The translations under genes were made by a program, and so were the position numbers. A stretch of 64,000 bases of DNA from Chryseobacterium gleum (lineage in GTDB: Bacteria; Bacteroidota; Bacteroidia; Flavobacteriales; Flavobacteriaceae), in contig CAMDGB010000008.1 of the NCBI GenBank assembly GCA_945897915.1, forward strand, positions 1 through 64,000, given 5' to 3'. Position 1 is the stretch's first letter, and every line of letters begins with the position of its first letter. A model generated the notes under the pieces. That model saw only the letters and a program-made list of their open reading frames with translations. It was not told the origin of the DNA and ran no database searches. Positions 19,070 to 21,596 of the stretch are shown here, piece after piece.

Positions 19070-19708
19070 ATGTATTCTGTTTCAACCATTATTATCGCTA
19101 TTACAACATTGGTTACGTTTATGGGTTTGTCCAACGTTGCTTTTTTTGATCGCTTTAAATTCAACATTTCAAAAATTAAATCGGGCGAGCAATTTCGTAT
19201 GATTACCTCCGGATTTTTACATGCCGATTGGTTTCATTTTGCGTTTAACATGTTTAGTTTTTGGAGTTTTGCCAATTTTTTAACCCAAGAATTTAGTACC
19301 ACAAATTTTCTAATTATTTATTTTGGAAGTATGATAATGGGTAGTGTATTAACCTATTATATACATAAAAACGAACCCAATTATTCTGCTATTGGTGCCT
19401 CTGGCGCTGTAACTGGAATTATTTATTGTGCCATTTTATTATATCCAGAAATTGAGCTAAGAATGTTTTTTGCCATTCCTATTCCTGGTTACATTTTTGC
19501 TTTTTTGTATTTGGGATATTCCGTTTATGGTATGAAAGGAAGGTACGATAATATTGGGCATACCGCACATTTAGGAGGAGCTATTGGTGGTTTAGTAATA
19601 ACATTACTTTTAGTACCAAGTTTATTTCAATCCCGATTAATTTTTATTGGCATTTTATTAATCCCAATTGCAGTTTTAATATATTTGGTAAAAACCAAGA
19701 AAATATAA
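19070..19708 (+). CDS. Rhomboid family intramembrane serine protease
   Basis: HADWFHFAFNMFSFWSF, SAIGASGAVTGIIY, IGHTAHLGGAIGGL. Confidence 0.95.
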   Translation: MYSVSTIIIAITTLVTFMGLSNVAFFDRFKFNISKIKSGEQFRMITSGFLHADWFHFAFNMFSFWSFANFLTQEFSTTNFLIIYFGSMIMGSVLTYYIHKNEPNYSAIGASGAVTGIIYCAILLYPEIELRMFFAIPIPGYIFAFLYLGYSVYGMKGRYDNIGHTAHLGGAIGGLVITLLLVPSLFQSRLIFIGILLIPIAVLIYLVKTKKI

Positions 19709-19731
19709 TTGCTATTAAATAATCCTAATTT

Positions 19732-19965
19732 GGGGTTGTTTTCTGCTAATTTGGGGTTATTTAATGATATTTTGGGGTTCCAAACTACTCCGTTGGGGTT
19801 CCAAACTACTCCGTTGGGGTTCCAAACCCCAAAATCGGGGTTCCTGACCACAAAATTGGGGTCTATAACCACAAAATTGGGGTTCCATAACCGCAAAATC
19901 GGGGTTCTCAACCTCAAAATCGGGGTTCCCAACCCCAAAATTGGGGTTCCATAACCGCAAATTAT
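19732..19965. repeat. Tandem array of 11 degenerate 21-bp units, consensus GGGGTTCCnAACCnCAAAATY
   Basis: GGGG at 19732, 19753, 19774, 19795, 19816, 19837, 19858, 19879, 19901, 19922, 19943: spacing 21 bp except one 22-bp step. Confidence 0.95.
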
Positions 19966-20189
19966 CATTATAGAACCACAACGGAGATATTTTCAACCCT
20001 AACCGTGTACTCTTTTACTTCTATGATGGTTTCTTTGTGGTGGTTATACTGCTAAAAAACAGTTAGTTTTCATATAGATGGCCATTTGATAGTATTTCAA
20101 TTGATTTTTTTATACGATAAAATTAATTTAATAATTATTTTACATGATTTATATTTATTAAAACTACTTTTGTGTTCATTATTTAAAAT

Positions 20190-20834
20190 ATGAAAAGTAA
20201 AAACAAAGTAGCTGTAATAATGGCTGTATACAATACACCATTTGATATCATAAAAAGAGCAATAGATTCGGTTTTGCAACAAACTTTCCAAGATTTTGAA
20301 TTACTAGTCATTGACGATGGAAGCACAAATGATTCTGAAAGTTTAATTTTAAATTATGCCATACAGCATGAAGATAAAATTACCTATTTGCGTCATAAAA
20401 ACTGTAGTCAATCTGAGTCTATAAATAGAGCAATTTTGCTTACTAATAGCGAGTATATTACCGTTATTGATGCAGATGACGAGTACAAACCAAATCATTT
20501 AGAACTGTGCTTATCTGAAATAAATTCTTTGGATTTGATAGCTTCAACAACGGAAACCATTGTAAACAAAGAATCCGATTATTATGTGCCCGATCGTTTT
20601 AATAAAAATGAAGTGGTTCATGTGGATGATTGCATTTTGTTTGCCACACTTTTTGGAAAAAAAGAAGTGTTTACTAGCTTAAATTTTTTAGATATGTATG
20701 GCGCTGATGCTCATTTTTATGAATGTGCAGAAAAATTGTTTGTTGTAGAGAAATTAGATTTACGAACTTATGTTTATTATAGAAATAATCCAGACAGCAT
20801 AAGTGCAAAAGTTAAATTAAATCATTTGAGTTAA
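20190..20834 (+). CDS. Family 2 glycosyltransferase (possible N-terminal part of an interrupted gene)
   Basis: VAVIMAVYNTPFDIIKRAIDSVLQQTFQDFELLVIDDGSTNDSE, VIDADDEY; ends in TAA directly before an open same-frame ORF. Confidence 0.85.
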   Translation: MKSKNKVAVIMAVYNTPFDIIKRAIDSVLQQTFQDFELLVIDDGSTNDSESLILNYAIQHEDKITYLRHKNCSQSESINRAILLTNSEYITVIDADDEYKPNHLELCLSEINSLDLIASTTETIVNKESDYYVPDRFNKNEVVHVDDCILFATLFGKKEVFTSLNFLDMYGADAHFYECAEKLFVVEKLDLRTYVYYRNNPDSISAKVKLNHLS

Positions 20835-21596
20835 TTGGAAATCCCTTCAAACCTTCAATTGTCAAACAGACTTATATTAGGATGCCATATTTCAGGTGTT
20901 TATGACGTAAATAGAAGTCAAATGCTTTCAGACGATGATTTTTCAATCATTGAAAAATGGGCCAATTCTATTGCGAAATTACATCTTCAAGCCATTATTT
21001 TTCATAATAATTTTTCAGAAGCAACTGTTTTAAAACACCAATCAGCACATGTACTATTTATTAAGATAACGCATGATATTCGATTTAATCCAAATGTTTT
21101 TAGATATTATGTTTACAACCAATTCTTAGAAAAATATAGCGATACAATTGAATCGCTATTTGTGACGGATGTATCCGATGTTTTGGTATTAAAAAACCCG
21201 TTTATTCAACCTTTGTTTACAAATAATTCAGACATTGTTTTCTGTGGCGATGAACCTACGAATTGGGATAATGAATGGATGCAATTGCACGGTTCGCATT
21301 TAAGAAGTCGAATTAAAGATTATGCTGAAGTGGAATCTGAAAATAAGTCGGAGCGTTTGTTAAATTGTGGCGTTATCGGTGGTACTCTTCAAACCATTAA
21401 ACCTTTAATTGATTCACTTTGGCAGATTCATGAAAATTATAATGCAGACAACACCACATCATTTACCGGCGATATGGGTGCTTTTAACTATATTATTCGT
21501 AAAAATTATAAGAATCGTATTTTACACGGCACGCCTGTAAACTCAGAATTTAAAGCTTATTTTGATGACGGAACCAACTGGTTTCAGCACAAGTAA
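20835..21596 (+). CDS. Glycosyltransferase-like protein (possible C-terminal part of interrupted gene)
   Basis: DVSDVLVLKNPF, LNCGVIGGT, GDMGAFNYII; starts with TTG immediately after TAA, same frame as upstream ORF. Confidence 0.65.
   Translation: MEIPSNLQLSNRLILGCHISGVYDVNRSQMLSDDDFSIIEKWANSIAKLHLQAIIFHNNFSEATVLKHQSAHVLFIKITHDIRFNPNVFRYYVYNQFLEKYSDTIESLFVTDVSDVLVLKNPFIQPLFTNNSDIVFCGDEPTNWDNEWMQLHGSHLRSRIKDYAEVESENKSERLLNCGVIGGTLQTIKPLIDSLWQIHENYNADNTTSFTGDMGAFNYIIRKNYKNRILHGTPVNSEFKAYFDDGTNWFQHK

Follow-up and report, generated by a model that had tools for sequence, protein, structure and literature searches.

Phages of the lambda, 434 and P22 type carry about three tandem operators, which repressors of the Cro/C1 family occupy as cooperative dimers on one face of the DNA, and type III toxin–antitoxin systems (toxIN) carry a repeat array 5′ of a gene for a ToxN-family endoribonuclease. 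REP/BIME repeats and REPtrons are short, intergenic and palindromic and have a GTAG/CGTC end tag (PMC3733652). A survey of prokaryotic satellites (PMC6749651) gives a 69-nt family for Flavobacterium psychrophilum; its main text contains no gene-tied 21/22-bp dyad family. Here we describe an array of 21-bp units in a stretch of 64,000 nucleotides (the window), together with related arrays. On balance, we consider it probable that the window array is the orphan of an element that normally lies 3′ of the gene encoding a helical, acidic protein of ~160 aa and/or 5′ of a gene for a Cro/C1-type HTH protein, and that its operator-like units would be sites for dimers.

Like the lambda/434/P22 operators, the arrays consist of palindromic sites about two helical turns apart, and in 31 of 35 HTH hits (below) they lie next to a gene for a protein of the Cro/C1 fold. 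Unlike those operators, they comprise about 8–24 sites, also occur 3′ of an unrelated protein family without a regulator, and have no phage context, the ~160-aa family having no relative in the plasmid, phage and IMG/VR collections. A viral origin was rejected on the same absence and on a pattern search of IMG/VR, which gave two matches only, both isolated sites within other sequence. As in toxIN, a small protein gene lies beside a tandem array, but here the array is mostly downstream, often past a terminator, has a 21/22-bp period and no RNA fold signature, and the linked ~160-aa protein is acidic and predicted to be helical; we rejected a type III system because the array is 3′ of the gene in 71 of 91 cases and the protein has no toxin match in Pfam or PADLOC.

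REP/BIME repeats are likewise short, intergenic and palindromic, with a Y1 transposase sometimes nearby (here at loci L070 and L151). Assignment to them was rejected because the present arrays are tandem and strictly helically phased, not dispersed single or paired palindromes, and their unit consensus has no GTAG/CGTC end tag; they also accompany two other protein families, and each genome has few such loci. Plasmid iterons and partition sites resemble the arrays in having phased sites of about 20–22 bp beside a protein gene, but the arrays are chromosomal, with several loci per genome, dyad units and no rep or partition ATPase gene; the absence of the ~160-aa family from plasmid and phage records and the ordinary chromosomal neighbours led us to reject this class too. 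One look-alike came from the Campylobacter plasmid pBRAN2 (L095, 5015–5125), where six 22-bp repeats TTTGGGGTTTTAATACTCCTAA stand near the replication gene in an iteron-like arrangement that we treated as coincidence. With prokaryotic satellites (PMC6749651) the arrays share the form of intergenic tandem repeats. A CRISPR array was rejected, as the units have 6-nt spacers and 3–4-nt centres and not unique spacers of ~30 nt.

The window array and its neighbours

The initial annotation had described eleven GGGG-bearing units at 19732–19965, repeating every 21 bp with one 22-bp step, downstream of a rhomboid gene. The tract positions bear out this periodicity: the first G's lie at 19732, 19753, 19774, 19795, 19816, 19837, 19858, 19879, 19901, 19922 and 19943, giving seven steps of 21 bp, one of 22 bp and two of 21 bp (nine of 21 bp in all), and TRF also reports the 19732 array as a tandem repeat. 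The remaining 63.8 kb of the window, which has 31.7% GC, contain only 25 GGGG. The eleven units do lie in the interval first given, but the real end of the array is further on, at about 20006; a profile parse placed 13 units over 19732–20006, the last of which retain the AACC half only. The 22-bp step arises where GGGGTT and AACC are separated by a centre of 4 nt and not 3 nt. The features of the locus are:

19070–19708, plus strand: rhomboid protease gene (PF01694; Pfam, 1.4e-29), the neighbour on the other side, outside the module
19732–19965, no strand: array as first noted, 11 GGGG-bearing units with the consensus GGGGTTCCNAACCNCAAAATT (sequence)
19720–20006, no strand: whole phased array, with a degenerate left edge and, at the right, units that have the AACC half only (TTATCATTATAGAACCACAAC, GGAGATATTTTCAACCCTAACCG) (profile parse, loop/spacer parse, sequence)
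19772–19813, no strand: units 3 and 4, identical 21-mers (TTGGGGTTCCAAACTACTCCG) (sequence)
19931–19948, no strand: near-palindrome AACCCCAA-AA-TTGGGGTT formed by two neighbouring units (sequence)
20015–20073, minus strand: faint candidate remnant of an array-linked ~160-aa gene (its 3′ end), immediately next to the array (local alignment; nhmmer)

Units 3 and 4 are identical, as had been stated. The 18-bp palindrome that had been placed near 19934–19951 exists as a near-palindrome, three positions to the left and inexact (AACCCCAAAATTGGGGTT; 8-bp arms, asymmetric central AA). The view that the period belongs to DNA or RNA and not to a protein also held, and we assign it to DNA given the 22-bp steps and, at other arrays, 43-bp (21 + 22-bp) periods and 22-bp clades. 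A coding origin or protein heptad repeat was rejected because the 22-bp steps break the frame and the 43/44-bp periods elsewhere are not one-frame multiples of 3.

The genome-wide search for such arrays and their gene neighbours that the initial annotation had proposed revealed that the array is neither absent from relatives nor alone of its kind. The window's genome (G000, 2.14 Mb) has two sister arrays, on contigs C1 (10790–11043) and C45 (6573–6782), the close relative G063 has an ortholog, and the flanking gene families recur. A similar array was found in 11 of 400 sampled Flavobacterium genomes, and a GTDB-wide pattern scan returned true arrays in Flavobacterium, Chryseobacterium, Kaistella, Epilithonimonas, Chitinophaga, Sphingobacteriales MAGs and one MAG labelled Acidobacteria, the commonest form being GGGGT-TCCGA-ACCCC-AAATTT.

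The rhomboid gene is incidental to the array. It does adjoin the array in the window, as first noted, but the adjacency is limited to the window and its closest relative G063, and we rejected a link between gene and array; the partners are most likely a lost ~160-aa gene on the opposite strand and, in relatives, HTH genes. Local alignment of 20015–20073 with the end of the L199 gene, including the stop codon, scored 42, compared with 29.5 for the best of 100 shuffles, and the window's best match to an nhmmer profile of the gene end was 20064–20016 on the minus strand, with an E value (0.51) that is weak alone. The profile also matched at C45 (E = 0.011) and, clearly, at arrays of other genomes (L064, 2e-14; L054, 3e-7). 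At the C1 array, the pairwise test gave 47 against 28.5 in shuffles, and the profile search placed no remnant at the array edge. Judged by these alignments, gene remnants appear to adjoin the arrays at the window, C45, L054 and L064. Because the remnant of a gene end abuts the window array on the minus strand, this array was most likely the 3′ array of a since-lost gene, with the rhomboid gene simply terminating on the far side. Neither an intact ~160-aa gene nor a gene of the HTH family was found in G000, and with no HTH relative there the window array has no known partner. To its right, 20190–21596 holds a gene of glycosyltransferase family 2 and a neighbouring ORF, neither of which is present at this place in G063, so the array borders a synteny break.

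Gene families flanking the arrays

Comparison of array flanks revealed that arrays in several genera lie directly 3′ of genes of one ~160-aa family (alignment A1). The family is present in 59 of 400 Flavobacterium and 15 of 399 Bacteroidota genomes, and the array-positive Flavobacterium genomes carry it more often than the remainder (8/11 versus 51/389, p = 1.7e-5). A period of 21/22 bp (or 42–45 bp) was detected in the 1 kb downstream of 71 of 91 family genes, compared with none of 273 dinucleotide shuffles and none of 159 control windows from the same loci, and the best downstream self-match lag was 20–23 or 41–45 in 72 of 93 gene copies. Sixteen of the 91 genes have no clear downstream period, and in one clade the array lies upstream instead. 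The downstream period holds in homologs of ~25% identity, and from clade to clade the repeat letters show no relation. How similar two arrays are follows protein identity and not whether they share a genome (Spearman 0.44, 0/999 permutations); many paralogues within one genome, at ~50% identity, have dissimilar arrays. The period of about two turns thus stays while the repeat letters diverge together with the neighbouring protein, a co-divergence that may arise merely through linkage of array and gene.

Searches of Pfam, NCBIfam, PHROGs, PADLOC and PDB gave no convincing match for the ~160-aa family. Its members are acidic (median pI 5.2) and so improbable DNA binders on charge alone. Two AF2 models are helical, of moderate confidence (pLDDT 67), and the first of them had no significant match in the PDB. 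At one locus (L206, G543:C45), two tandem genes of the family are followed by a long array of 42-bp period.

In one clade, comprising 19 loci, a gene of ~120 aa follows directly after the array on the same strand. Its product combines a Cro/C1-type HTH with a probable coiled-coil tail, is basic (pI 9.4), and has a weak match to the Cro/C1 fold (HTH_26, E = 5e-4 in one member; HipB and P22 C2 in the PDB). A search for this family gave 35 hits with enough upstream sequence, including two each from L216 and L244 (broken copy); a phased array lay directly 5′ in 31 of them and downstream in one. Since the ~160-aa gene is missing upstream in 16 of the 31 array-bearing hits, the array can occur apart from it and stands 3′ of one family and 5′ of the other. 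The arrangement with the array directly 5′ of an HTH gene is found neither in the window nor in most ~160-aa loci. A Bacteroidota-type −7 motif (TANNTTTG) precedes 10 of 40 HTH starts, versus 2.3 expected. The difference in calculated charge, with the HTH protein basic and the ~160-aa protein acidic, would favour the former as the array binder. At locus L235 (G106:C23), a phased array precedes the HTH gene, and another, very strong and of 42-bp period, lies downstream of it.

Unit geometry and rival explanations

In 34 non-duplicate arrays, parsed with equal penalty for all departures in length, the centre between the arms was 3 nt in 421 of 469 cases and 4 nt in 34 of 469, and the inter-unit spacer was 6 nt in 444 of 464 cases; indels fall almost only in the 3/4-nt dyad centre. 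In 50 of 68 cases, an array's resemblance to its own reverse complement exceeded that of all 20 period-preserving shuffles, and the units are dyads, as sites of a symmetric protein would be. Complementarity of the arms, within or between units, did not exceed that of within-array shuffles (z = −0.1 and −2.0), and no compensatory changes were found within or between units. The arms do not covary, and pairing is therefore not the conserved property. G063, like the window's genome, lacks the ~160-aa gene; its array is 78% identical to that of the window and its rhomboid gene 93%, and whole units have been gained or lost between the two, as they have between C1 and L051. In these two pairs, pooled, core positions were unchanged more often than the other positions of the unit (133/142 versus 303/364, p = 0.0016), which hints that the array may be constrained even after gene loss, two pairs being little to go on.

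The identical neighbouring units 3 and 4, the gain and loss of whole units and the lower identity of the array than of the rhomboid gene would all suit a neutral minisatellite, in which slippage and unequal crossing-over maintain the 21-bp repeat and the gene neighbours are coincidental or hitch-hiking. We disfavour this reading, which seems to us quite improbable, because arrays with unrelated letters have the same gene families at their sides throughout the phylum, single-base changes of length occur almost nowhere but in the centre, dyad symmetry is retained in unrelated repeat dialects and core positions change less. The decaying minisatellite of the initial annotation thus fits in part, in that the window has an orphan array next to a gene remnant, and fails on the confinement of length changes and the better-kept core. 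That annotation had also suggested a hairpin structure at the 3′ end of a transcript, and units acting as RNA hairpins (a terminator, an mRNA stabiliser or an antitoxin-like RNA) could indeed be written as GGGGTT-n-AACCCC; in the GGGGTT clade, moreover, the array begins within about 20 nt of the stop codon. An RNA element is nevertheless very unlikely, given that arm complementarity is at shuffle level without covariation, that a terminator-like hairpin lies between gene and array, ahead of the latter, in 37 of 69 gene loci, that the two strands are equivalent, and that ten array loci contain no Rfam family at gathering score, the window stretch giving chance-level matches only. Of the three suggested roles, a phased protein-binding array has the best support, with binding itself presumed.

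The protein bound might instead be the ~160-aa product, acting on the array by its own gene as a cis-acting DNA scaffold, with the HTH protein as a later partner. This protein is the partner common to most gene-linked loci, and array letters co-diverge with it; its acidity, the lack of a recognised DNA-binding fold, the moderate AF2 models with no significant PDB match and the 16 HTH loci that have an array without the gene make such a role unlikely. Gene and array could also mark a site at which accessory or defence cargo enters by exchange, with the array as the substrate of recombination. L180 and L181 carry near-identical copies of gene, array and HTH gene in different places, their flanks being unrelated, Y1 (IS200-like) transposase genes adjoin the arrays at L070 (3539–3988) and L151 (5846–6583), and the genes after the array in loci without an HTH gene are diverse. 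Defence-like genes are among them: AriAB-like (PARIS) at L057 and L059, type IIG restriction–modification at L207, ThsB (Thoeris) at L189 and HEPN_Swt1 at L193, an AAA_21 ATPase also being named. They account for 5 of 20 genes tested after the array versus 1 of 10 on the gene side, a difference that is suggestive but not significant and in which the first batch of post-array genes was picked for large size. With no recombinase common to the array loci and the same HTH neighbour kept in 19 loci, we regard a recombination or entry site as distinctly unlikely.

Proposed mechanism and accompanying observations

The orphan-element reading that we prefer builds on the observed association of arrays with genes, its direction, its spread over Bacteroidota, the dyads, the near-fixed lengths and the divergence of letters at a kept period; against it stands the absence of a linked HTH gene from most ~160-aa loci. 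Each 21/22-bp unit would be the binding site of a symmetric (dimeric) protein, and with units two helical turns apart, about 8–24 dimers could line up on one DNA face and bind cooperatively, the array acting like a lengthened operator of the phage type. At loci where the array is followed by an HTH gene, the HTH protein would be the likely binder, and the likely target would be the promoter of that gene. The ~160-aa gene of the window would have been lost, leaving the remnant at 20015–20073 and an array that borders the convergent rhomboid gene at its 3′ end; with the gene gone, the array would be either a relic or still bound by an unlinked protein encoded elsewhere.

More tentatively, and with rather less confidence than an even chance, the arrays may belong to a Bacteroidota-wide module of an orphan acidic ~160-aa protein and/or a Cro/C1 regulator plus an array, in which helical geometry (21/22 bp, dyads, 3/4-nt centre) is selected and letters drift, the array is a nucleoprotein scaffold for about 8–24 dimers, and orphan arrays, the window's included, still function in trans. 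If so, the fast drift of array letters with the neighbouring protein would give each locus a private code. Such a module was not described in the literature searched, in which subscription papers are thinly covered; it is apparently an undescribed one, with a likely working principle, tandem operators, that is known and with a window copy that is itself probably an orphan. An unnamed family, present in about 15% of the Flavobacterium genomes sampled, comes with its own DNA array and would offer, if this is true, a natural laboratory for the co-evolution of DNA-binding proteins and their sites, with several private pairs per genome. Other intergenic repeats of 21/22 bp in Bacteroidota may find their explanation in the module as well, and an odd repeat becomes a testable system.

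Two further elements were seen near arrays. A flank common to several arrays, CCGAAAA..GAGTAGG, proved to be the DUF805b RNA motif (RF02914) and was set aside as lying outside the module; the motif occurs near the arrays of L136, L144, L146 and L057, in the last also just 5′ of the ~160-aa gene. One unnamed protein family of 821–823 aa is encoded directly after the array in two genomes, at L063 (6371–8836; genome G306, which has no ~160-aa gene) and at L165 (2080–4548).
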